DNA from: Roseinatronobacter monicus
Lineage (GTDB): Bacteria; Pseudomonadota; Alphaproteobacteria; Rhodobacterales; Rhodobacteraceae
DNA length: 64,000 nucleotides
Assembly (NCBI RefSeq): GCF_006716865.1
Contig: NZ_VFPT01000002.1
Span: 1-64,000 of the forward strand
Direction of reading: 5' to 3'
In this document: piece after piece, positions 367 to 64,000 of the stretch
How positions within the stretch are numbered: the stretch's first letter is position 1
Layout of the letters: each line of letters begins with the position of its first letter
The notes under the pieces: generated by a model
Told to the model about the DNA's origin: nothing
The model's database searches: none
Seen by the model: only the letters and a program-made list of their open reading frames with translations
Position numbers and translations under genes: made by a program

Positions 367-1389
367 TCAGTCGGTATCTTTCTCCGAGTCTTCGACGTTC
401 AAATAGCTTGCGACTAAGTCCCCAAGCTTTTCGAGACGCTCTTGGTCAATCGGCACTCCTGCAACCTTGATTGAGAGGTTTCCATCGATGGAAGTGACCG
501 AGAGATTTCGGTTGCCCACCTTCCGCTTTACGGTGAGTTTTTGGGGCTTTGTCTTTGGTTTTTGCTTGGTTTTGTTCGTCCTCTCCAAGCTTGCCAAGGC
601 CCCCTGTAAATCGCGAAAACTCATGTCGTAGACGTTCTTGAACGCGTTCAAGATTTGATCCTGCGCAGCGAATACGGACCGCGCTCGCGAGACAAGACTC
701 TCATGCACACCTATTTTTTTGGCGAAGGCCACAGCTGTCAGTTTTCCTTCGCCAGCAGCCAGAGTCTCATACATTTCGCCAATCGAAACCAATCGCTCAA
801 ATGGGCTAAGATTCTCACGTTCCTCATTCTCGCGGAATCGCAGAAACAACATCTCAAACTTGCTGTTTTCTGCGTTTCGCGCGTCAGGCGGGGCAAGGAT
901 TGCACGAAGGGGTACACCGAGCTCTGACGCGGCAGCCAGTCGGCGGCGCCCTGTAAGCATCACGAATGGAACCTCAGCGACATTCGACGGGTCCAACGGA
1001 TCCGGCTGCCAATCCGGATCCTCCGGCCACACTAGAATGGGCGTGTCTTGCCCGTTCGAGGCAATGCTGTTTACCAGAGATCTGAATGCTTCTTGGGACA
1101 TCCAATCTTGTCTGCGGTCGGTTCCCATCGGATCGGAGATTTGATCTGGCGACAGGCTTATCTCGTGGCGACCGTTGAGGATATCCGAACAAAGCTCGGC
1201 TCTGCTTCGCTCCACTGCAGCTTGCGACTGCGCAAGCGCCCCTGATTTCCAGGCACTACCGGCCCCCTTGAAGGGAGTTGAAACCGCATCTCTCGATTCT
1301 GTCCTGCCTTCGGAATCGCTCGCACGCTCCTTGGATGTATCAACATTGGTAGCCTTGCTGACCAGCGACCTTGGAATACTACGTTTCAT
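367..1389 (-). CDS. repB: Plasmid partition protein RepB (ParB family)
   Basis: A 340-residue ParB-type protein that would bind the plasmid centromere and stimulate the partner ATPase RepA. The N-terminal ParB/Srx-like fold carries the signature GRRRLAAASELG at about residues 147-158, followed by RENEERENLSPFERL at about 190, the usual ParB box II/HTH entry, and a helix-turn-helix near 222-242. The C-terminus is rich in lysine. Its ATG overlaps the repA stop by 4 bp (ATGA), so the two are translationally coupled. An 18-bp palindrome inside this gene (636-653) repeats the core of the palindrome upstream of repA. Confidence 0.88.
   Translation of the reverse strand: MKRSIPRSLVSKATNVDTSKERASDSEGRTESRDAVSTPFKGAGSAWKSGALAQSQAAVERSRAELCSDILNGRHEISLSPDQISDPMGTDRRQDWMSQEAFRSLVNSIASNGQDTPILVWPEDPDWQPDPLDPSNVAEVPFVMLTGRRRLAAASELGVPLRAILAPPDARNAENSKFEMLFLRFRENEERENLSPFERLVSIGEMYETLAAGEGKLTAVAFAKKIGVHESLVSRARSVFAAQDQILNAFKNVYDMSFRDLQGALASLERTNKTKQKPKTKPQKLTVKRKVGNRNLSVTSIDGNLSIKVAGVPIDQERLEKLGDLVASYLNVEDSEKDTD
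636..653. promoter_or_regulatory. 18-bp palindrome inside repB matching the repA upstream palindrome
   Basis: The perfect palindrome with core TTGAACGCGTTCAA lies within the repB coding sequence. The same 18 bases form the centre of the 36-bp palindrome at 2876-2911. Two copies of one palindrome in a single partition operon suggest a parS-type site bound by RepB. It does not match the published repABC parS pattern GTTNNNNGCNNNNAAC, so it would be a different specificity class. Confidence 0.5.
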
Positions 1390-2741
1390 GCTTCACCCTC
1401 GCCGTCATCGTCGTAGAATTCGTCCATCCATGTATCGGCATAGCCACGTTCGAGCCCCGGCCAGAGCCGCGATACTATGGCGTCGTTCACGGCATCGGCA
1501 TTCGTGATAAACCGGTTGATCCCCTTGCGCTTTCCCGGCGTGTCCGGCTCGTACTCGTATACGGACTGATAGACGTCTGACGCGTTCGAGATCGCGTCAG
1601 AACGCAGATAAAACACCGGAAGAATTTCTGTGGGGCAATGTTCTAGTAGGTTTCCGATGTGGTTAAGGTCCTGCGCATTGGACCGTTGGACGATCGTCGG
1701 CAACAGCATGTTCGCACCGGTTCCGATCTCGATCCTTTCATGGGCCAGGATGTGCTGAAGCATCCCTAGCAGGCCAGTCACAAAGGTCGACAACGTCGCA
1801 ATGTCGAACCCCTTCATGGTTTGCGGTATGACCAGCGAAGTCGATGCAATCACGTTATTCAACTGGAACAGTGTGAGCGCGGGTTGATAGTCGATGATGA
1901 TGACATCCAGCGTCTCCGCTAGTGCGGTGTCGAGCCGCTCTTGGTCGACCTTGCCGTCGACTACCAATTCGTTGGGTAGCGTTTTCGGTGGGTGGCCCGC
2001 TTTCCAGCGGTCGATGGCATCGCGCAGGTAGCGGTAAAAGCTCTTTCCGGCGGGGGCTTCGCGGACAAGCCGCGCAATCTGGATCTCACCCTCGGATGTT
2101 TCGCCGTGAGCTGGAAGCAGGCGCAGGCCTGGCCAGGAGGTCTTGAGAAGGAAGCTATCGAGCGTTTGCGCATCGTGGTCGGTATATGGCGCGTCTTCCG
2201 ACTGAAAGAGTCCAGCAAAGTCCACCATGGAGGCGGTGTTTTCGTCGGGCATCTGGGGAAGACCTTCCCCCCCGACAAAGTAAAGCGTTATTGTACTTTG
2301 CGGGTCAGCATCCATAACACCAACACGCATGCCGTAGTGCAAACTGAGATACTGGGCAAAATGCGCGGCGCTCAAGCTTTTGGCAGTGCCGCCTTTCTGG
2401 CTTGCAAACGAGATAACGGGCAAAGGTGCACCAGGCTTCCGCCAGGCCAGGTAATCGTACGGCCGCTTTGCCGAGGCTGCCAGAAGGGCACGCATGTGCA
2501 TCAATTCGGACAGCGTAAAAACGCGCTCTCTTCCAACATATTCGCCTGCTGGGAAGTCATCACTCGAATTTGCGAACTTCGTGAGATACTGAATACTCAC
2601 ATTAAGAAACCTTGCGCACTGGCGCATGGACCACGTGCGCTTGATGCGCTGACGCAGGGTGAGTTCCTTGTTAACTGCCACCATCGTGCGCTCAAGCCCA
2701 CGTGACAGATCCGTCAAAAACTGCTCTAAGCTACCGCTCAT
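1386..2741 (-). CDS. repA: Plasmid partition ATPase RepA (ParA family)
   Basis: A 451-residue ParA-type Walker ATPase of the RepABC kind: it segregates plasmid copies and represses its own operon. An N-terminal winged-helix region (about residues 38-75, with RQCARFLNVSIQYLTKF) precedes the deviant Walker A QKGGTAKS (about 115-122) and the Walker A' block MDADPQ; IIIDYQPAL is the Walker B region. The ATG at 2741 was chosen because AGGG lies 8 bp upstream and because the longer frame to 2900 would run into the palindrome at 2876-2911, a probable operator/centromere. The Walker A has Ala where most ParA proteins have Gly (KGGxGKS/T). Confidence 0.85.
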   Translation of the reverse strand: MSGSLEQFLTDLSRGLERTMVAVNKELTLRQRIKRTWSMRQCARFLNVSIQYLTKFANSSDDFPAGEYVGRERVFTLSELMHMRALLAASAKRPYDYLAWRKPGAPLPVISFASQKGGTAKSLSAAHFAQYLSLHYGMRVGVMDADPQSTITLYFVGGEGLPQMPDENTASMVDFAGLFQSEDAPYTDHDAQTLDSFLLKTSWPGLRLLPAHGETSEGEIQIARLVREAPAGKSFYRYLRDAIDRWKAGHPPKTLPNELVVDGKVDQERLDTALAETLDVIIIDYQPALTLFQLNNVIASTSLVIPQTMKGFDIATLSTFVTGLLGMLQHILAHERIEIGTGANMLLPTIVQRSNAQDLNHIGNLLEHCPTEILPVFYLRSDAISNASDVYQSVYEYEPDTPGKRKGINRFITNADAVNDAIVSRLWPGLERGYADTWMDEFYDDDGEGEA

Positions 2742-2875
2742 TTCTAAGCCCTGACTTCGGTTGTGTCCGAGTTCGACTCGATTCTGCCTCTTTGGTAGCA
2801 TGTTTTTGGACAAAATGTAAAGATACCGCGCGCCTATAGGCTTCAGGCGCTTTTTTTGTGGCTTAGTGGCTCCAG

Positions 2876-2911
2876 AAACTCCAATCTTGAACGCGTTCAA
2901 GATTGGAGTTT
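2876..2911. promoter_or_regulatory. 36-bp perfect palindrome upstream of repA (operator or centromere)
   Basis: Every base from 2876 to 2911 pairs across the centre at 2893/2894, with inner core TTGAACGCGTTCAA. It lies 134 bp upstream of the repA start, where RepA/RepB operators and parS sites occur. The inner 18 bp recur in repB at 636-653. A perfect 36-bp palindrome is very unlikely by chance. Confidence 0.65.
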
Positions 2912-55186: not shown

Positions 55187-55256
55187 ACGATGCCCTCCAC
55201 ACCTAGCACAAGCAAATTCGATGGGCTACAAAAAGAGAACAAAAAAAGGGCAGGCC

Positions 55257-57608
55257 ATGGCAAATTCCGCAAAAAATCGTTCGACGCAATTCGTTCGCGG
55301 CGGACAGACGACCCAGCATTGGGTCAGAATGGCCACGCAGGTTCTGCGCTCGTCGTTGTTCGTGACCCTGGCAGTCTTTATCGTCATTTACGCGGCACTC
55401 GTATACCGGAATTACGAAATCAAGCACGTGCGCGAAACCGCCGCTACATGGGTGGCAGACTTTAACATTAAGCTCGGCCGAGGTGACAAGATTGTCAGCT
55501 ACCTCGACCACAAAAACCATCGCCAGGTTCGCACATCCTCGGAGATCGCAGAAGACCCGCGTCTAAGCGCGCTATCACAACGCTACAACGATAACGCTGT
55601 CCGCTTTGCGGTCATAGCAGGTGTGCTGGCCCTGCTTGGGTTCGCAGTCTCCCTGTTTGTATTCATCTTCGTCGGGAACTCCCTGGCACAGAAGGAACAT
55701 GTTCGAGGTACTCGGCTCATAGACCGCGACGACCTTGTGAAATGGTCGAAGCACAAGTGGAAAACCTATTTCAAGAATTTTGGCCGTGATGCCAAAACAG
55801 GGCCCCAATACACAATCGGCGGCATCCCCTTTCCCCCGAACGCAGTCGAAGCACAGACGGGTATTTTCGGGACGGTGGGCGTCGGCAAAACCAACGCCAT
55901 GAAAGAACTGCTAAAGACGATCCGAGCCAACAATGGACGCGCCATCATCTACGACCGCATGGGCTCGTTGGTGCGCGACTTCTATGATCCCGAAACTGAC
56001 ATCATCATCAACCCTTTTGATGAGCGATCCAAAATCTGGTCGCCCTTTTTCGAGGCCAAAGACCCCGCCGCGATTGCCCAGCTGGCAGAGGTCCTGATAC
56101 CACAACGCCCTGGCAGCAACGATCCGTTCTGGTCGCAGACAGCGCGGCTTGTCTTCGAATACGCCGCACGCTCTTTGATCAAGCGCAAAACCCAGACCAA
56201 CGCGCAGCTGCGCCGCGCGATCATGACCATGTCGGCGCAAGAGCTGTCCAACCTGATCGCAGGGACACCAGGTGGCCACTTCTTCGGCGAGCATGTCGAA
56301 AAGACCTCCGCCTCGATCCGCGCCAATATGATTGCCGAGCTGCGCTTTTTGGAATTCTTGCGCGATGACGGCGACCCCGTCTCGATCAAGGATTGGGTTA
56401 TCAGCGACAAGCCCGGCTTTGTGTTCCTAAGCGGGGATGCCGAACATTCGGCCGCCACCCGCAACATCATCAGTGCGTGTCTGGAAGTGGCGGCCAATGC
56501 GCTGATGACCTGCGAGGAACAGCGCGACCCTTCGCTGTGGTTTTTCATCGACGAAGTCCCGACGCTCAACAAGCTTCCCTTTCTGACTGCAAAGCTTGCC
56601 GAAATCCGGCAATTCGGCGGAGCCTTCGTTCTGGGCTATCAGGTGTTTTCACAGCTCGAAGACATCTATGGAGAGAAAGGCGCCCAAACGATTGCGGGCA
56701 ATCTCAACAACCGCATCGTCTTCAACACCCCTGATGCGCGCACAGCCAAGCTATTTTCGGAAAGCCTTGGCTTTGAAGATGTCATCGAGCACCGAGAGAA
56801 CCTCAGCTTTGGTGCGCATGAAACCCGAGACGGTGTCAATGTCGTCAGCCAGCGTGTGGAACGCCCGATCGTCACCGCCTCCGAGATCCAGTCTTTGCCC
56901 CAGTTCGAAGCCTATATCCGCTTTGCCTATGACAGCCCGACTGCCCAGATTACTTTCGGGCCAATCGATGTGGAGCCATGCGCGGAGAAATTCATCAAAT
57001 ATACTGGCACCGGCTTTGATCTCGACAGCATGGATGCGAACGCGCCTGTGCCAGAGGGCGAAATGCAATCAATAGCGCAACAAAACGCGCCGGAATTGCT
57101 CGACACCATCAAGCAAGAAAATAAGCGTAAGTTTGCGACATGGACACCGCGCGAGCAATTGACGGCATTTGAAGAGTGGTGGGCCGAAGGCCGCAAGCTG
57201 CAATTCGATCCCCAACAGATGAAGTTTGTCCCACAGATTGACGCTGAAAAAGACGACTACATGCTCTGGGAGCATTACTATCGACAACGCCTGCATGGCA
57301 ATGACATGCCAAGTTATGTCGTCCTTACCTATTATGCTGAAGATATGATGAGCAACACGCCCCGCCCGAAAAACAAGCCTCGGGTGCATATCCCTAAATT
57401 AAGAGAGATACGCGAATTGGCGAAAAGGGATATTCCGGCATGCGACGACAATGCCGGCGCTCCCCCTGCCTTTCCCTCGAGCGACGCTGAACAGACGGCG
57501 GCAAAGCAGCCCAAAAGCCAGCTCAAGGGTGCCGGCGACCGGGCAGATGCCGCCCCGGAACTCGGGGGCATGCGCGATATGATTCAAGCTGCCGCGCCCA
57601 GCAAGTAA
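55257..57608 (+). CDS. traD: Conjugative coupling protein, TraD/VirD4 type
   Basis: A 783-residue inner-membrane ATPase that hands the relaxase-DNA complex to the secretion channel. Two membrane segments (VLRSSLFVTLAVFIVIYAALV and FAVIAGVLALLGFAVSLFVFIFVG) precede the AAA domain with Walker A GTVGVGKT (about residue 203), IIYDRMGSLVRDFYDP and Walker B LWFFIDEVPTL; the end has the QYQF-like block AFVLGYQVFSQLEDIYG. ATG 55257 has AGG upstream; 55221 is an alternative. It is followed by the relaxase gene. Confidence 0.88.
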   Translation: MANSAKNRSTQFVRGGQTTQHWVRMATQVLRSSLFVTLAVFIVIYAALVYRNYEIKHVRETAATWVADFNIKLGRGDKIVSYLDHKNHRQVRTSSEIAEDPRLSALSQRYNDNAVRFAVIAGVLALLGFAVSLFVFIFVGNSLAQKEHVRGTRLIDRDDLVKWSKHKWKTYFKNFGRDAKTGPQYTIGGIPFPPNAVEAQTGIFGTVGVGKTNAMKELLKTIRANNGRAIIYDRMGSLVRDFYDPETDIIINPFDERSKIWSPFFEAKDPAAIAQLAEVLIPQRPGSNDPFWSQTARLVFEYAARSLIKRKTQTNAQLRRAIMTMSAQELSNLIAGTPGGHFFGEHVEKTSASIRANMIAELRFLEFLRDDGDPVSIKDWVISDKPGFVFLSGDAEHSAATRNIISACLEVAANALMTCEEQRDPSLWFFIDEVPTLNKLPFLTAKLAEIRQFGGAFVLGYQVFSQLEDIYGEKGAQTIAGNLNNRIVFNTPDARTAKLFSESLGFEDVIEHRENLSFGAHETRDGVNVVSQRVERPIVTASEIQSLPQFEAYIRFAYDSPTAQITFGPIDVEPCAEKFIKYTGTGFDLDSMDANAPVPEGEMQSIAQQNAPELLDTIKQENKRKFATWTPREQLTAFEEWWAEGRKLQFDPQQMKFVPQIDAEKDDYMLWEHYYRQRLHGNDMPSYVVLTYYAEDMMSNTPRPKNKPRVHIPKLREIRELAKRDIPACDDNAGAPPAFPSSDAEQTAAKQPKSQLKGAGDRADAAPELGGMRDMIQAAAPSK

Positions 57609-57655: not shown

Positions 57656-60600
57656 ATGCTGTCAGTCAGCAATGTCTCCGCTGGTGCCGCTGCCAGCGGC
57701 TATTACAAAGCCGAAGGGTATTATATCGCGGGCAGTCCCGAAGCCGAGGCGGCCGCCAGCTGGTTTGGCAAAGCCGCCGAAACATTGGCTGAGAAAGGCC
57801 AGAGTGTTTTCGGGGGGCGCGTCGATGACCCCACATTCGCCGAAATGCTTGAAGGCCATGCCCCGCCCGCACAGAAGGATATCTCTGGCGCCTGGCGCGA
57901 GGGCCAGACCATGGGGCGCTATGTGGATGGAGAACGGCAGCATCGACCCGGCATTGATCTGACGTTCTCGGCGCCGAAGACTGTCTCGATCATGGCACTG
58001 GTCGCCGGCGATGAACGTGTCGTGGCCGCGCATGATGCGGCGGTGAAAGAAGCGATGTCGATTGTCGAAACGCGCTTCGTCTATACCCGCCGTGAAGAGA
58101 ATGGCGAGATCGTCCACAAAAAGGGCGAGATGATCGCGGGGCTGTTTCGCCATGACACGTCGCGCGCGATGGACCCGCAATTGCACACGCATGCCGTGAT
58201 CCAGAACATGGTTCTCGGATCTGATGGGAAATGGACCGCGCTGACCAACGAAGAGATCTACAACAACAAGATGCTGATTGGCGCGCTCTATCGCAGTGCT
58301 TTGGCCGAGAACCTGATCGAGCTTGGCTATGAGGTATCGCGCAACGGCAAACATGCGATCCCCGAAATTTCCGCTGTGCCCGAGCACGCTGTCGCCGCGT
58401 GGTCGAAGCGGCGCGAAGAGATTGAACAAGCTCTGTCCGCACGCGGCAAGGAGACACCCGATGCTATCGACAGCGCTCTGGCCACATTGGCCACGCGGCG
58501 CAACAAGCAGAGCGGTGTTGATCGTGACGAGTTGAAACAGGCCTGGCTTGATGAAGCCGGGAAGATGGGCTTTGGAAAAGACCAGCTTGATCGGATCGTT
58601 CAGGCCGCGTCGCGTGACAAGGCGCTAAGGCTGCCGGGGCAAACGCGAGACGGGCAAGTGATCGAAAGCCCCGATCAGCGTGCGCTGGCTGCCGTCGAAT
58701 TTGCGATCAAACATATCAGCGAGCGCGATGCGGTTTACTCACGAGACGATATCATCCGCACAGCGCTCGGCCGCAATGGCGCGGCTCCGCTGCCGGCCTT
58801 GGAAAAAGCGATCGCCGCGAAGGAGAAGGAAGGCAGGCTTGTACCTGTCGATGTCGAAATTCGCGATCACAAGCATCAAGCAGAATCGTTCCGGCCTGGC
58901 GACGGCTTTACCGGGCGGCTGATCGGCCATGGCGAGTTGCCTTATGAATACAAGCCAGGCAACCGCATGAGCTATTACGTCACGATCCAGAACAGCTCGG
59001 GAACGCATACCTTGTGGGGTGCGGGCCTGAAGCAGGAAATGCAACGCACGATGTATCGGTCTGGCACAATGGTACATCTGGCCGTGACAGGCTCCCGGGA
59101 GGTCACGATCACCGACGACAGTACTGGCGTAACCAGAACAGTGCAGCGCAATCTGTGGTCCGCCAATCAGGTCGATGCCACGCCTGCCCAAGGTAAAGGC
59201 TTTGCGACCAAAACGGTGCGAATGTATTCTGACGACACGACGATCGCAAACGAGAAGGCCGTGCTGACAGCGTTTCAGCAAGGCAAGCGGCAGGGTGGCG
59301 TTAATCTTCGTGCGAGATATAGTGTCACTGGTGTAGTTAAGGCATCACCGGAAGCATATCTCGAACATACCCTTAGAAAAACCAGTTTGACCGACGGCCA
59401 GAAAGAAGCTGTGAAGCTGGGCCTGTCTGAGAAGGGTCGATACGTTGGCGTGCAGGGCTATGCGGGGACGGGCAAAACCTACATGCTGGCCACATTGGCG
59501 CGCTATGCCGAGAAATCCGGCTATACGGTTGAAGGCGCCGCGCCCACCAACAAAGCCGCCCAAGAGTTGCAAGAGGCCATTCCCAATGCGAGCACAGTCG
59601 CCCGCCGCTTGATGATGATGGAAGACCCGCAAGCCCGCAGGCAGAGCAAGGCAAAAACCATCCTCGTGGTCGATGAGGCTGGCATGATGTCCACGCAAGA
59701 TATGAAAGCATTGATGACCCACGCCAATAAGGCAGGCTATGCGCGCGTGGTCATGGTGGGCGACATCAAACAGCTCGACGCAGTCGCCGCAGGCAGCCCC
59801 TTTGCCCAGCTCCAAAAGGCCGGCATGCCAACGGCTGTCATGGCCGACATCCAACGCCAACGCGACACCCCTGCGCTACACGCCGCGGTTCTGCACTCCA
59901 TTCGCGGCGAAATCCACCAGGCCTTTACCAAGCTGCAAGGCATTGAGACACCCGACCGCGAGTACAAAGAAAGCGTAGCCGACACTCTCGCCAGAAAATG
60001 GCTGGCACATTCGCCGGACGAGCGTGAGCAGACCGGGATCGTTGTGCTGACCAATAGAATGCGCGCTGCGGTCAATACAAAGATCAGAGCAACGCTCAAG
60101 GCCGAGGGAGGGTTAGGTCAGCAAGATGTTGAGGCGCGCGGCCTCAGCCCGCTCAATCTCAGTGATGCGGAAAAACGCGACGCCCAAAGCTATACCCGCG
60201 GCGATATTATCGTCCCCTTCGCAAAGGCCGGCGTGCTTGAACTCAACAGGCCTTATGTCGTCACTGATACCCACCAGCGCTATAATACGTTGACACTGAC
60301 CCCCGAGCAGGGCGGTGACGCCGTGACCGTCCGGCTGGGGCATGGCAAGAACATCATCAAAAACACCGCAGCCTATGAGACGGAGCCGCGCGAATTCGCT
60401 ACGGGTGATAAAGTCAAAGCCACCATCGCCGATAAGGAAACCGGCATCATCAACGGCGCTCGAATGAGCGTCAAAAGGATTGGCAGAGACGAAATCGAGC
60501 TGCAAGCGGAGGGCCGGGAGCCTGTCCGGCTGCCCATAGATAGCCCCGCCGCGCGCGGATTGCAGCATATCTACGCGGCCACAGCGCATGATTTCCAGGG

Positions 60601-61012
60601 TGCTACGGTCAACAATATCCTCGTCGGCATGACGGCAAACGAACGCCTGAGCGACCAGAAATCCTTTTATGTGGACATCTCACGGGCTCGAAATAGCGCG
60701 ATTCTGGTTACAGATGACCCCGCCAAACTGGCTGACAGGATCGAAAAAAACACCGGTGAGCGCTCAACGGCGCTCGATGCATTGAAGCTCAGGATGGATA
60801 ATGACGACAAGGATAAGGCGCTTGAGCAAGGCAAACAGCACGATCAGCACAAGCAATACGACATAAGTGGACACACCAAAGACCCCGAATTTGAAAACTT
60901 CGCCAAGCAGCTGAAGATCAAACAGGATCGGTTTGACGCCGAATTGCAGCGGATCCAAGACCGCATAAACGATAACCAGAAACAGAAAATCAAGGAAGGT
61001 CCCACCAGATGA
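57656..61012 (+). CDS. traI: MobF-family relaxase with helicase domain
   Basis: An 1118-residue TraI/TrwC-like relaxase that nicks oriT and unwinds the transferred strand. The catalytic Tyr pairs are in GYYKAEGYYIAG (Tyr16-17 and 22-23), and the metal-binding His triad is in DPQLHTHAVIQN near residue 180. The RecD-like helicase part has Walker A GYAGTGKTYML near 601, VVDEAGMMSTQDM and VGDIKQLDAV, and ends with YVDISRARNSAILVTDD. The start follows AAAGGTG. The C-terminus is charged and coiled-coil-like. Its stop overlaps the next gene. Confidence 0.92.
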   Translation: MLSVSNVSAGAAASGYYKAEGYYIAGSPEAEAAASWFGKAAETLAEKGQSVFGGRVDDPTFAEMLEGHAPPAQKDISGAWREGQTMGRYVDGERQHRPGIDLTFSAPKTVSIMALVAGDERVVAAHDAAVKEAMSIVETRFVYTRREENGEIVHKKGEMIAGLFRHDTSRAMDPQLHTHAVIQNMVLGSDGKWTALTNEEIYNNKMLIGALYRSALAENLIELGYEVSRNGKHAIPEISAVPEHAVAAWSKRREEIEQALSARGKETPDAIDSALATLATRRNKQSGVDRDELKQAWLDEAGKMGFGKDQLDRIVQAASRDKALRLPGQTRDGQVIESPDQRALAAVEFAIKHISERDAVYSRDDIIRTALGRNGAAPLPALEKAIAAKEKEGRLVPVDVEIRDHKHQAESFRPGDGFTGRLIGHGELPYEYKPGNRMSYYVTIQNSSGTHTLWGAGLKQEMQRTMYRSGTMVHLAVTGSREVTITDDSTGVTRTVQRNLWSANQVDATPAQGKGFATKTVRMYSDDTTIANEKAVLTAFQQGKRQGGVNLRARYSVTGVVKASPEAYLEHTLRKTSLTDGQKEAVKLGLSEKGRYVGVQGYAGTGKTYMLATLARYAEKSGYTVEGAAPTNKAAQELQEAIPNASTVARRLMMMEDPQARRQSKAKTILVVDEAGMMSTQDMKALMTHANKAGYARVVMVGDIKQLDAVAAGSPFAQLQKAGMPTAVMADIQRQRDTPALHAAVLHSIRGEIHQAFTKLQGIETPDREYKESVADTLARKWLAHSPDEREQTGIVVLTNRMRAAVNTKIRATLKAEGGLGQQDVEARGLSPLNLSDAEKRDAQSYTRGDIIVPFAKAGVLELNRPYVVTDTHQRYNTLTLTPEQGGDAVTVRLGHGKNIIKNTAAYETEPREFATGDKVKATIADKETGIINGARMSVKRIGRDEIELQAEGREPVRLPIDSPAARGLQHIYAATAHDFQGATVNNILVGMTANERLSDQKSFYVDISRARNSAILVTDDPAKLADRIEKNTGERSTALDALKLRMDNDDKDKALEQGKQHDQHKQYDISGHTKDPEFENFAKQLKIKQDRFDAELQRIQDRINDNQKQKIKEGPTR

Positions 61013-61581
61013 GAAGTGCCAATGTCGATACTGAGCGCCCTAGAATGGTCCTCGGGGATGACGCGATCGAGCTTGCAAAGTCAGCCGGTGACGCGCAAGC
61101 AGGCATCACATCACGGGATTTGGATCGTGGAATTGTTGCGCTCAAGACAGAGCTCAGAGAGACGAAAGCGGCGCTGAAGCAGGCGCAAGACACCCTCTCG
61201 GAGCTGTTGCATCGTTTCGACAAAACCGAAGAATTGCGTGTCCGAAGTGACTGTGGCCACCTGATGTTGCATGGTCAAATCCATCGAGAACTGAAGGGAA
61301 TTCTTGGGTTAGTCGGGCTTTTGGTTTCAGCAAAAAGCTCCGATGAAATGCGCGAAGGTGACTTCGATGCCGCGATGAGAGTGGTCGAGGATCTTGTCGC
61401 CGAGACGCGCAACACACTCGCCTTTTGGCGTGCCCGTGAGGGGTTGGAGATGCCCGAATATGACCGCCAGAAGATGCAAGAGGAACATGAGAGACTGCTC
61501 GCCGAGGCACGCATGATCAATGCCCGCGCCCTTGCCCAGCAGCAGCAAAAAGAGTCAAGACAGCAGGAAATGGAACGGTGA
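61009..61581 (+). CDS. Small coiled-coil protein coupled to the relaxase
   Basis: A 190-residue protein of unknown family. It overlaps the relaxase gene by 4 bp. Heptad-rich segments (ALKTELRETKAALKQAQDTLSEL; MQEEHERLLAEARMINARALAQ) suggest a coiled coil. No catalytic motif or signal peptide is seen. The position suggests a relaxosome or transfer accessory role. Confidence 0.6.
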   Translation: MRSANVDTERPRMVLGDDAIELAKSAGDAQAGITSRDLDRGIVALKTELRETKAALKQAQDTLSELLHRFDKTEELRVRSDCGHLMLHGQIHRELKGILGLVGLLVSAKSSDEMREGDFDAAMRVVEDLVAETRNTLAFWRAREGLEMPEYDRQKMQEEHERLLAEARMINARALAQQQQKESRQQEMER

Positions 61582-61818: not shown

Positions 61819-62631
61819 ATGTTGATTTGCTCCTCTCGCGCCATAGGCCGCGTCTCGCTCGCCAACGCAGGCGGATGCCTGCTCATTATCTCCCTCACCC
61901 TGAGCCCCCAAAAGGGCGAAGCCACTTCCTCGACATGGTCCCAAACCAGCTCACCCTGGAATGCCGCGCGCCCTTCCCCAAATCCACCCGCAACACGCCG
62001 GGCCCCGCCAGCAGGATCTTCGTTCCAAACATCGACCATGTCCACATTCGACACCCCGGCCCCGGCAAACCCGCAAAAGGCGCGGTCTTCTATCAACCTC
62101 CCCCCAAACGCTTCACAGCTTGCCCAGCTGCGCGCCCTCATCGCAGCCGCCGAAGCCGGATCCGCAGACTATAACGCTGTCCAGTATCAAGCCCGCTTCC
62201 TACCCCCCAAAAAACCCACACAGATGACCATCGCCGAAATCTTCGCATGGATTGAGGCAACCCCAGGCCAGCATCACGCAATCGGGCGCTATCAGATCAT
62301 CCCCGCGACCCTCGCTGGCCTTGTCCGAAATAGCGGCATCAGCAGCACTACTCCCTTCACTCCCGACACACAGGACCTATTCGCCAATATGCTGATCGAA
62401 GAGGCCGGATATCATCGCTTCCGTAGAGGCCAGATCAGCCGCGCAGCCTTCATGGATAATCTCGCCGCAATCTGGGCCGGCTTCCCCCTGCCCAACGGCC
62501 AAAGCCGCTATCAAGGCATTGCAGGCAACAAGGCCACAATCACAAGAGAAGCCTTCGAGAATGCAATGGAAAAGATATTCCCCACGCAGCAGGCCCAAAA
62601 TACCCCTGAAAGCCCCTCAGCTCCCCACTGA
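61819..62631 (+). CDS. Muramidase-like lytic protein (VirB1 analogue)
   Basis: A 270-residue protein from ATG 61819, which follows AGGAGC; the longer frame from 61630 has no ribosome site. A signal-like start (RVSLANAGGCLLIISLTLSP) and a Pro/Ser linker precede a lysozyme-like domain: MTIAEIFAWIEATPGQHHAIGRYQIIPATLAGLV and LFANMLIEEAGYHRFRRGQIS, with the GKYQI/GRYQI block of phage-type muramidases. In conjugation it would open peptidoglycan for the secretion channel. It is separated from the relaxase by the AT palindrome region. Confidence 0.7.
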   Translation: MLICSSRAIGRVSLANAGGCLLIISLTLSPQKGEATSSTWSQTSSPWNAARPSPNPPATRRAPPAGSSFQTSTMSTFDTPAPANPQKARSSINLPPNASQLAQLRALIAAAEAGSADYNAVQYQARFLPPKKPTQMTIAEIFAWIEATPGQHHAIGRYQIIPATLAGLVRNSGISSTTPFTPDTQDLFANMLIEEAGYHRFRRGQISRAAFMDNLAAIWAGFPLPNGQSRYQGIAGNKATITREAFENAMEKIFPTQQAQNTPESPSAPH

Positions 62632-62851
62632 GGGGCCAGGTCTCCCCCGCAGGGCTGCGCCTCCTGCAGCGCCCCAATAGTTACCCTCTATCGCGCCTGA
62701 AGAAACCACGCGCGCACAGATAGGCACCGCCAGCCCCCCGAATGCCCCCGCAGAGCGCAGAAGGCGCGCTCACACTGCCAGGTCGCGCAAAATCGCACCT
62801 GGACACAAGGCAGAGCAGAAGGGCGCGCTCAGCGGTCCGTTTTGGCAGCCG

Positions 62852-63227
62852 TCCAATCACCCAACAAACCAACCCTCCGACGTTCCTATGCTCCGACGTT
62901 CCTATGCTCCGACGTTCCAATGCTCCAACGGCCCTATCTTCCATGGGTTCAACTATCCGACTGCCCAATGTTCCAACGGACCGACACTCCAATTGCCCAA
63001 TCTACCTACTGTCCAACGGCCCATCCCCCCCACTCTCCACTGTTCCGACCTTTCAACTAACCAATAACCCAATGGTCCTATCTTCCTATCATCCAATCCA
63101 CCGACGTACCGATTTTCCACAGGTCCAATCCTCCTATGTCCTTATGCTCCGACGTCCCGCCTTTCCGATATTCCGAGTCTCCAATGCTCCATTTGTACAA
63201 TCTTCCAATCTTCCGACTTTCCAATTG
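62852..63227. repeat. Array of 47 octanucleotide units in perfect phase
   Basis: The 376 bases divide into exactly 47 units of 8 bp with no slippage. Consensus is roughly NCC(R/T)AYNN, commonest forms TCCGACGT, TCCAATGC, TCCTATGC, TCCAACGG. C at position 2 is missing in only three units and C at position 3 in only one. The first part has true tandem 16-bp repeats (62876-62915). One more unit in phase (TCCGTTTT, 62836-62843) may precede it. Frames read through it are low-complexity shadows. It lies between the muramidase gene and a ParA-type gene. Confidence 0.85.
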
Positions 63228-63287
63228 ACTTGCCCGCCAAGACAGCCCTATCTCCCCACATACATAGAGACAGGGACACATAACCCC

Positions 63288-64000
63288 ATGAAATTGATAA
63301 CCGCCTACAGCCACAAAGGCGGAACAGGCAAAACGACCGCCCTTATGATGCTCGCCTCGGCTATAGATGCACAGGGCAAATCCGCGCTCTTGATTGACAG
63401 CGACCCCCACCAATCATTTGCAGCCTACCGAAACCACAGTGTTTGCGCACTAACGCGAGCGTGGAGCGAACGCTTTGATGTGGTTTACTATCCCTATGAC
63501 AAAGTTGATGCTTTGACGCTTGAAGGCAATCTTCTCAACGCCAATGATACCGGCAGGTATGATTACTGCCTGATCAACCTCCCGGGTGTCGATCACCCTT
63601 TCAACCGCTGCGCCTTACAATACGCGGAGGTTACTCTCATTCCTTTTGCCCCATCCGCCCTGGATTTGATGGAAGTGCCCCCCGCCTTGGACGTGATCCG
63701 CCAGCTCTCCAAAGAGGGAAGGGTGGGCGAAGCCAGAGTTTTATTTACGCGCATGAAATCTGAGACCAGGCGAACAGCAGCCAATAACAGGGATATTGAC
63801 GCCGTTCTTCAAAACTTCCCGGTGCTTCAGACGCAAATCAAAGACACTGCCATCATCGCGGATCTTGTCATGCGCGGCCTACTTGGGCGAACGCTGGCTT
63901 ATTATGAGGATCATGCTGTCGGCTTGGAAAAGGCTGAAATCCCCAGGTTAAAGACAGCGCTACAAGATTGCCGCGATCTACTTACCGAGATCAATGCTAT
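63288..64000 (+). CDS. ParA-type ATPase, cut by window edge
   Basis: The first 237 codons of a ParA/MinD/VirC1-like Walker ATPase. The start MKLITAYSHKGGTGKTTALMML carries the canonical deviant Walker A KGGTGKTT, followed by LIDSDPHQSF and YCLINLPGVDHP (Walker B). It may partition the plasmid, place the transfer apparatus as VirC1 does, or be part of a second segregation system. The octanucleotide array just upstream (62852-63227) is a candidate binding site. GACAGGGACA lies before the ATG. Confidence 0.8.
   Translation, partial: MKLITAYSHKGGTGKTTALMMLASAIDAQGKSALLIDSDPHQSFAAYRNHSVCALTRAWSERFDVVYYPYDKVDALTLEGNLLNANDTGRYDYCLINLPGVDHPFNRCALQYAEVTLIPFAPSALDLMEVPPALDVIRQLSKEGRVGEARVLFTRMKSETRRTAANNRDIDAVLQNFPVLQTQIKDTAIIADLVMRGLLGRTLAYYEDHAVGLEKAEIPRLKTALQDCRDLLTEINA

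Follow-up and report, generated by a model that had tools for sequence, protein, structure and literature searches.

A phase-locked array of 47 octamers beside a VirC1-like gene in Roseinatronobacter monicus, a probable aid to plasmid transfer

Described systems and the locus

In Agrobacterium, according to the cited portions of two accounts, VirC1 binds the overdrive, stimulates nicking and delivers the transfer complex to the secretion channel (PMC4285021, PMC4949242); a third puts the length of the overdrive in vectors at 24 nt (PMC5030305). For plasmid R388, the source describes ten 9-bp repeats near oriT, arranged at the stb promoter as two sets of five with a spacing of 2; the ParA-like stbB is required for transfer but dispensable for stability, while stbA affects both (PMC3098194, as excerpted). 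The parS array of pSM19035 is made of 7-bp units read by a ribbon-helix-helix (RHH) protein, and full stimulation of its ParA requires an unbroken run of at least four heptads (PMC9499535, in the sections cited). In NAH7, the relevant passages report that Par proteins act at the oriT region and raise conjugation (PMC12421886).

The locus described here lies in a window of 64,000 bp, the whole stretch of DNA that was analysed, which is part of a 244,353-bp contig (C2). Its features are:

55221..57608, forward strand: TraD-type coupling protein (family search)
57656..61012, forward strand: TrwC/MOBF relaxase-helicase (family search)
61009..61581, forward strand: 190-aa ORF in the interval between relaxase and array (ORF reading)
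61961..62631, forward strand: 3' part of an ORF immediately 5' of the array, longest frame from 61630 (ORF reading)
62852..63227, forward strand: octamer array, 47 ungapped units of TCC(A/G/T)A(T/C)NN (unit alignment, shuffles)
63228..63287, forward strand: 60-bp leader from the array to the VirC1-like start codon (sequence)
63288..64000, running on to contig position 64022, forward strand: VirC1-like ParA-type ATPase with Walker A motif KGGTGKT (Pfam, relatives)
Contig 64019-64564, beyond the window, forward strand: second gene, 181 aa, overlapping the end of the VirC1-like gene by 4 bp
367..1389, reverse strand: repB-like gene, ParB/RepB (NCBIfam, under cut-offs)
1386..2900, reverse strand: repA-like gene, the ParA of a repABC-type operon and a separate partition ATPase (NCBIfam)
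Contig 243214-244344: repC, across the contig end if the contig is circular (NCBIfam RepC, 334 bits, cut-off 150)

The locus resembles the Agrobacterium VirC1/VirC2 system and its overdrive in that its ATPase is of the VirC1 family, the gene behind it is a candidate VirC2 relative and repeats stand near a relaxase gene, and the likeness extends to two true VirC1 relatives (L073, L114) that have 8-bp arrays, one of them with a Pfam VirC2 behind it. The overdrive, however, is short and stands beside the T-DNA borders, whereas the array in the window runs to 47 octamers and has a MOBF relaxase gene as its neighbour. In 1992, Hansen reportedly described an enhancer made of octamer repeats on an Ri plasmid. 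As in the stbABC operon of R388 with its stbDRs, so far as the source presents them, a ParA-like gene and directly repeated short units lie next to transfer genes on a MOBF plasmid. R388 has ten 9-bp repeats spaced by 2 and a DNA-binding gene before the ATPase gene; in contrast, the octamers in the window are contiguous, and the ORF before the array has no assigned family. The cited accounts of type Ib partition systems (pSM19035 with an RHH ParB; TP228 with parH and ParG) likewise describe a ParA-type ATPase, an RHH protein and an upstream array of short units, and a ParA-type ATPase with a tandem array upstream is what the window contains. In pSM19035, a native array comprises seven heptads, which occur in both orientations, whereas the 47 units here share one orientation, and the locus further differs from type Ib systems in its 181-aa second protein, its relaxase neighbours and its separate repABC genes. 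NAH7 is similar in that partition-type proteins acting at oriT raise transfer; it differs in its inverted-repeat parS sites and KorA-like ParR, and the passages cited mention no tandem octamers.

The component parts are of known kinds. As far as the open-access literature shows, the new elements are how long and how strict the array is, its location on a MOBF plasmid, and the finding that relaxase-linked VirC1-type genes are accompanied by arrays, mostly of 7-9 bp; within that literature, to which the search was confined, we found no description of such arrays at VirC1 genes outside Agrobacterium. The array probably serves as a landing platform for a protein involved in moving the plasmid between cells. 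Our preferred reading, to which we assign a probability of roughly 0.6, is that it would be the DNA component of a transfer cassette of VirC1/VirC2-like type, as a greatly extended enhancer of the overdrive type and a platform for a VirC2-like protein.

The array and its surrounding genes

A preliminary description, made by direct reading, had split the sequence into 47 consecutive octamers around NCC(R/T)AYNN. Splitting the whole array bears this out: the 376 bp at 62852-63227 amount to exactly 47 octamers with 0 insertions or deletions, and the pattern sharpens to TCC(A/G/T)A(T/C)NN. T occupies column 1 in 32/47 units, C columns 2 and 3 in 44/47 and 46/47, and A column 5 in 41/47; column 4 is divided A25/G13/T8/C1 and column 6 T24/C20/G2/A1, while columns 7-8 are mixed. 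The information per unit is 6.94 bits, against a mean of 1.23 and a maximum of 1.57 in 200 mononucleotide shuffles. Self-identity reaches 0.55, 0.56, 0.53 and 0.58 at lags 8, 16, 24 and 32, and lies between 0.16 and 0.33 at the remaining lags up to 32. Over the 800 bp 5' of the ATPase gene, the period score of 0.595 (z 14.5) exceeds all of 1000 dinucleotide-preserving shuffles (maximum 0.429), and the runner-up place for period 8 across the 64-kb window scores 0.357. The autocorrelation and position profile proposed as checks are therefore in agreement with the first reading, and sequences of equal composition do not give runs of this kind, both the bits and the period score standing above every shuffle.

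Phase and the CC are kept while the rest has diverged, as had also been proposed: 37 of the 47 units are distinct, and the hypothesis that all eight columns are equally conserved is rejected (chi2 84.9, p 1.4e-15), indicating that a core is held while other bases drift. The octamers flanking the array are out of phase. Together, the differing units, the unequal columns and the flanks show that the array is no fresh product of slippage, consistent with the earlier suggestion, and its core looks to be under constraint. A closer repeat of 16/32 bp near the 5' end (62875-62937) suggests that units have also been copied in groups. The preliminary description considered an 8-bp period to fit neither codons nor a helical turn; the period is indeed out of codon phase, but it is not odd in this context, given the 7-bp array of pSM19035. 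The sites of MetJ and TP228 have an 8-bp spacing. Among 72,556 plasmids, a search for the same sequence gave a single weak match of 40 bp, and within the genome the three-unit pattern, with up to 2 mismatches, clusters only at the array and is found at a few single places elsewhere.

An open frame does run from 62742 through the array into the ATPase, and a Cereibacter ParA is annotated from inside its array, as would be expected if the repeats were a coding N-terminal extension of the ATPase. We regard this, and likewise a neutral microsatellite, as the least probable of the explanations weighed, since the columns are unequal, 8 bp is out of codon phase, and relatives have other words at the same pitch and share the start at 63288. 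The unequal columns and this common start led us to reject the coding reading of the ORF from 62742. As to a neutral microsatellite, the comparison was with seven viral contigs that carry five exact TCCRAY octamers; in the stretches compared, their units are nearly identical to one another and no ParA-type Walker motif occurs, in contrast to the array. Three viral contigs (L143, L144, L149) contain near-perfect runs of TCCRAY octamers, with no ParA-type Walker motif in the stretch examined.

The start of the ATPase gene was set at 63288 because MK(L/V)ITAYSHKGG is a start common to its relatives. The protein matches Pfam PF07015 (VirC1) with 72.7 bits (cut-off 24) and falls below the NCBIfam cut-offs of both VirC1 (76 of 313) and ParA_partition (80.7 of 180). 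From the end of the MOBF relaxase gene to the array is a distance of 1.8 kb, and no oriT or nic-like site was identified within the window. An ORF at the position of the 190-aa ORF is also present in Cereibacter and Celeribacter; the ORF preceding the array has a similar counterpart in Celeribacter (L016) and a positional equivalent in Cereibacter (L009). Neither of the two matched a Pfam family at 0.001. For the repA-like and repB-like genes, the best NCBIfam families are RepA and RepB, both under their equivalog cut-offs, and over the 800 bp upstream of the repA-like gene shuffle scoring detected no significant array. With repABC on the contig, partition is likely already provided.

The start codon of the ATPase follows the end of the array by 60 bp, and the RHH partition protein ParG is also a repressor of its operon according to the section cited (PMC7308502); the array might accordingly be no more than an operator through which the second protein represses its own operon. 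The 47 units far exceed the need for this, relaxase-linked relatives have 10-57 units, and we consider an operator alone very improbable.

VirC1-type loci and their arrays

The ATPases of Cereibacter plasmids are 55-60% identical to that of the window, and in the nearest relatives the order is MobF, two or three ORFs, array, ATPase and second gene. Two Cereibacter plasmids (L009, L010) have a period of 8 with a different word, CCGCAYNN; in Celeribacter (L016), the unit is 26 bp, which by eye reads as 9+9+8. Plasmid pORIO2 (L017) and L015 (genome G051) have the word CCGGCAAN at mixed 8/9 spacing; most of their array stands some 1 kb from the ATPase gene, which in L017 counts against the preferred reading. 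Other repeats occupy the gap, and by eye also a short run of the same word. The nearest relatives roughly keep the place of the array and a pitch of 8-9, but not the word. Whether homologous plasmids hold the segment in phase, which the preliminary description had raised as a point of possible refutation, thus has a divided answer: period 8 is kept in L009 and L010, while the spacing is mixed 8/9 in Celeribacter and pORIO2 and the words differ. In the two loci with a distant array, a second, longer repeat with copies of very roughly 180 bp (by eye) stands between the 8/9-bp array and the ATPase (L017 5100-5870; L015 240-1370). The Cereibacter ParA annotated as starting inside its array is found at L009 5740-6732, and the array in the window is likewise open in the ParA frame (62742-63998); arrays poor in stops can therefore lead gene callers to add false N-terminal extensions.

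We searched 292 genomes of the order with PF07015 and hand-picked 60 regions, mostly from the top of the matches listed and with up to about 6 kb on either side; four loci of the R. monicus genome bring the total to 64. An array was called before the ATPase gene at z >= 4.5 and above all 100 shuffles. Relaxases were sought within about 6 kb with two models (TrwC and a VirD2-like profile), so that other relaxase types are missed. Arrays are present in 37/37 TrwC- or VirD2-linked loci and 9/27 others (Fisher p 1.3e-9), where the 37 form 18 clusters at 60% identity and are not all independent, and 7 of the 27 have less than 4 kb before the gene, so that a relaxase could lie outside. These counts include as linked, by hand, the window's own locus L011, because its stretch starts past the relaxase gene, and as unlinked L094, which a contig end truncates, despite the MobF gene of its relative pORIO2. 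At z >= 5, the counts are 35/37 and 8/27. Among control windows of 800 bp from the same loci, 22/672 pass z 5 at any period and 3/672 at period 7-9, all three at 9.

The best period in the 37 linked loci is 7 in 25, 8 in nine, 9 in one and 13 in two, the last being L068, with a Celeribacter-like 26-bp unit, and L100; by greedy count, the relaxase-linked arrays have 10-57 units. Pitch follows the VirC1 tree: it requires 2 changes, against 9.5 with shuffled labels (0/500 as low), a count favoured by near copies and obtained with L068 hand-labelled 9 and L100 left out. Both true VirC1 relatives, L073 (318 bits) and L114 (264 bits), have 8-bp arrays; the latter, a later locus also extracted as L141, is from another family and has a VirD2-like relaxase (z 7.0). 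Another later locus with a relaxase, L156, has a 7-bp array at z 23.1.

Of 22 further VirC1-type loci that were scored, 17 are without a significant array; arrays occur in L114 (8 bp), L126 (7 bp, with a 101-aa second gene), L118 (9 bp) and L117 (11 bp), and L124 gives a marginal signal. Ten later loci, nine of them without a relaxase, include 7-bp arrays in L155 and L162 and 11-bp arrays in L159 and L161. Weak period-5 and -6 signals appear in L157 and L160, neither with a detected relaxase, and no array was found in three later loci lacking a detected relaxase, L153 (identical to L028), L154 and L158. Arrays of 10 or 11 bp stand upstream of ParA in L090, L092, L117, L159 and L161, with no detected relaxase (L117 lay outside the relaxase search); their second genes, where confidently recognised, encode about 100-125 aa, and these arrays are perhaps further pitch classes of partition centromeres.

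Transfer, partition and the candidate reader protein

A VirD2-like relaxase gene lies upstream on the other strand in 34/34 VirD2-linked loci, its far end 2.5-4.5 kb from the ATPase start, and the array therefore sits between the relaxase and ATPase genes. Beyond the array on the relaxase side, a TTCCTG(C/T)CA or ATATCCTGC site occurs in 23/34 of these loci, a count that omits L061 (site inside the array) and L067, L072 and L081 (other flanks, about 1150 bp away) and includes L050 and L077, where the site is beyond the array by the greedy unit count and is covered by a looser array span. A loose nic pattern is matched in 27/34, against 10.3 in shuffles. As the MOBP nick consensus is given as (C/T)ATCCTG(C/T) in the passage cited (PMC3772185) and most sites carry TTCCTG, we term them nic-like only; they were seen in the VirD2-linked relatives only.

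Arrays of this kind are not confined to such surroundings. ParA loci with a second gene of 97-99 aa and no detected relaxase have 7-bp arrays, of 10-13 heptads where the second gene encodes 97 aa, which fit type Ib centromeres, so that an array alone does not prove transfer. The array in the window could by the same token be the parS centromere of a type Ib partition system, its ATPase and second protein segregating the plasmid without a part in transfer. Type Ib systems are laid out, according to the portion cited, as ATPase gene, gene for a small DNA-binding protein and upstream array (PMC5016525), the NCBIfam ParA_partition score is about that of VirC1 (80.7 versus 76), and two more loci (L155, L162) resemble the heptad-bearing ParA genes with a 97-aa second gene. 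A centromere is nonetheless unlikely in our estimate: the contig already has repA, repB and repC, the arrays track TrwC- and VirD2-type relaxases (37/37 versus 9/27), and the second gene is of the longer type, at 181 aa against the roughly 100 aa of the single-RHH partners in type Ib systems. Moreover, no array precedes ParA in two Rhizobiaceae loci whose second gene is short (L151, L150; about 30% identity), and in a Methylobacterium ParA locus with a short second gene the leading signal, at a distance of 513 bp, is of period 12, period 8 being the runner-up. A relaxase annotated as Ti-type TraA is encoded 3.5 kb from the ParA of L151, and L150 has a mobilization gene nearby; the association is therefore limited to VirC2-like cassettes and the two relaxase types tested.

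A further possibility is dual use as in the stb operon of R388, with the array and its binding protein positioning the plasmid for inheritance and the ATPase switching it to transfer. In the source's description, StbA-bound repeats lie by oriT and stbA acts on both stability and transfer (PMC3098194). In R388, however, the DNA-binding gene precedes the ATPase gene and the repeats number ten, and repABC makes a second stability system less needed in our plasmid; a dual role in stability and transfer, for which the Par proteins of NAH7 offer a further precedent, is in our view somewhat less probable again than a centromere. Transfer is favoured over a centromere because the ParA is VirC1-like, the arrays accompany relaxase genes and the contig has repABC. 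Among the functions first suggested, a scaffold linked with the ParA-type gene has gained from the arrays of relatives at the same place and nearly the same pitch, while the centromere is now less favoured.

The transfer cassette would need a reader of the array, for which the 181-aa second protein is the candidate. It has no Pfam or NCBIfam match, and a sequence comparison of the protein and its families with solved structures gave no relevant match; judged by eye, the C-terminal 110 residues may form two strand-helix-helix units. A profile of 33 second proteins from VirD2-linked loci, run against the 375 ORFs of four TrwC-linked loci, returned as its best four the four TrwC-linked second proteins (E values 1e-5, 1e-5, 7e-5 and 0.015; next ORF 0.065). 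The best three of 459 ORFs for a profile of 16 were the window's 181-aa protein (7e-5), an L141 ORF that contains the gene behind VirC1 (9e-5) and the Pfam VirC2 of L073 (4e-4); this profile misses the TrwC-linked second proteins of L068 (0.29) and L093 (7.9). With a profile of 37, the L073 VirC2 comes second (E 0.043), behind an opposite-strand ORF, and that of L141 is missed (E 1.2), and the profile of the four TrwC-linked second proteins clearly finds only the L056 second protein (3e-4). In hhalign, the TrwC-linked family aligns with the main 7-bp second-protein family (probability 92.6, E 4.6e-7), and two 7-bp families align with VirC2 (E 2e-4 and 5e-4), while the TrwC-linked family (0.16) and three other families give no significant alignment to VirC2. 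Such profiles suggest a tie of the second protein to VirC2-like proteins, though not in every test.

By the transfer reading, the second protein would be a VirC2-like RHH protein, one molecule of which would bind each octamer, the bound molecules forming a continuous row. Gaps would not be tolerated, since neighbouring molecules would have to touch; the need of the pSM19035 RHH protein for contiguous heptads would thereby explain the unbroken phase of the array. The row would recruit the VirC1-like ATPase, which could then help to build the relaxosome at oriT and dock the complex onto the secretion channel, a role modelled on VirC1 with overdrive and at a larger scale; it may also repress the operon. 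Protein contact would hold the CC..A core while the remaining bases drift, and units would be gained or lost as whole octamers or groups of octamers.

More tentatively, and at slightly under even odds, the overdrive may be one small example within a widespread class of arrays that enhance transfer: lengthy runs of 7-, 8- or 9-bp words kept in phase, placed between relaxosome genes and a VirC1/VirC2-like cassette and read on each plasmid by a VirC2-like protein of its own; pitch would follow the protein family, and the word would change fast, keeping co-resident plasmids apart. If true, this would explain why VirC1, a ParA relative, works with VirC2 at a repeat beside the transfer origin, and would make the pair an array-reading device common to many conjugative plasmids. 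The arrays could serve as a search signature for transfer regions in plasmids of unknown oriT, and as a natural series (7, 8 and 9 bp; many words) for studying how DNA is read and how plasmids avoid cross-talk.

Three differing arrays occur in this one genome, whose contigs C2, C3 and C6 each bear a relaxase-linked cassette: TCCRAYNN on C2, a GT-rich array with best period 8 on C3, and an ATGCYA-like array of period 7 on C6. The two on the other contigs are:

L050 2779-2915: GT-rich, octamer-like array of a VirC1-like cassette
L052 4150-4480: ATGCYA heptad array of a VirC1-like cassette

The relaxases of the genome belong to two families and occur with VirC1-like cassettes. On C5, the VirC1-like gene has no array of period 7-9 and the contig no match to the two relaxase families searched; a period-12 signal lies 686 bp from the gene. 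C4 gave no VirC1 match at 1e-12 and no match to the same two relaxase families. By reading, three adjacent recombinase-like ORFs follow the predicted VirC2-like gene of C2 (L011 4981-8437), and the translation of the first recurs about 1.1 kb from the VirC2-like genes of C6 (L052 172-1170).
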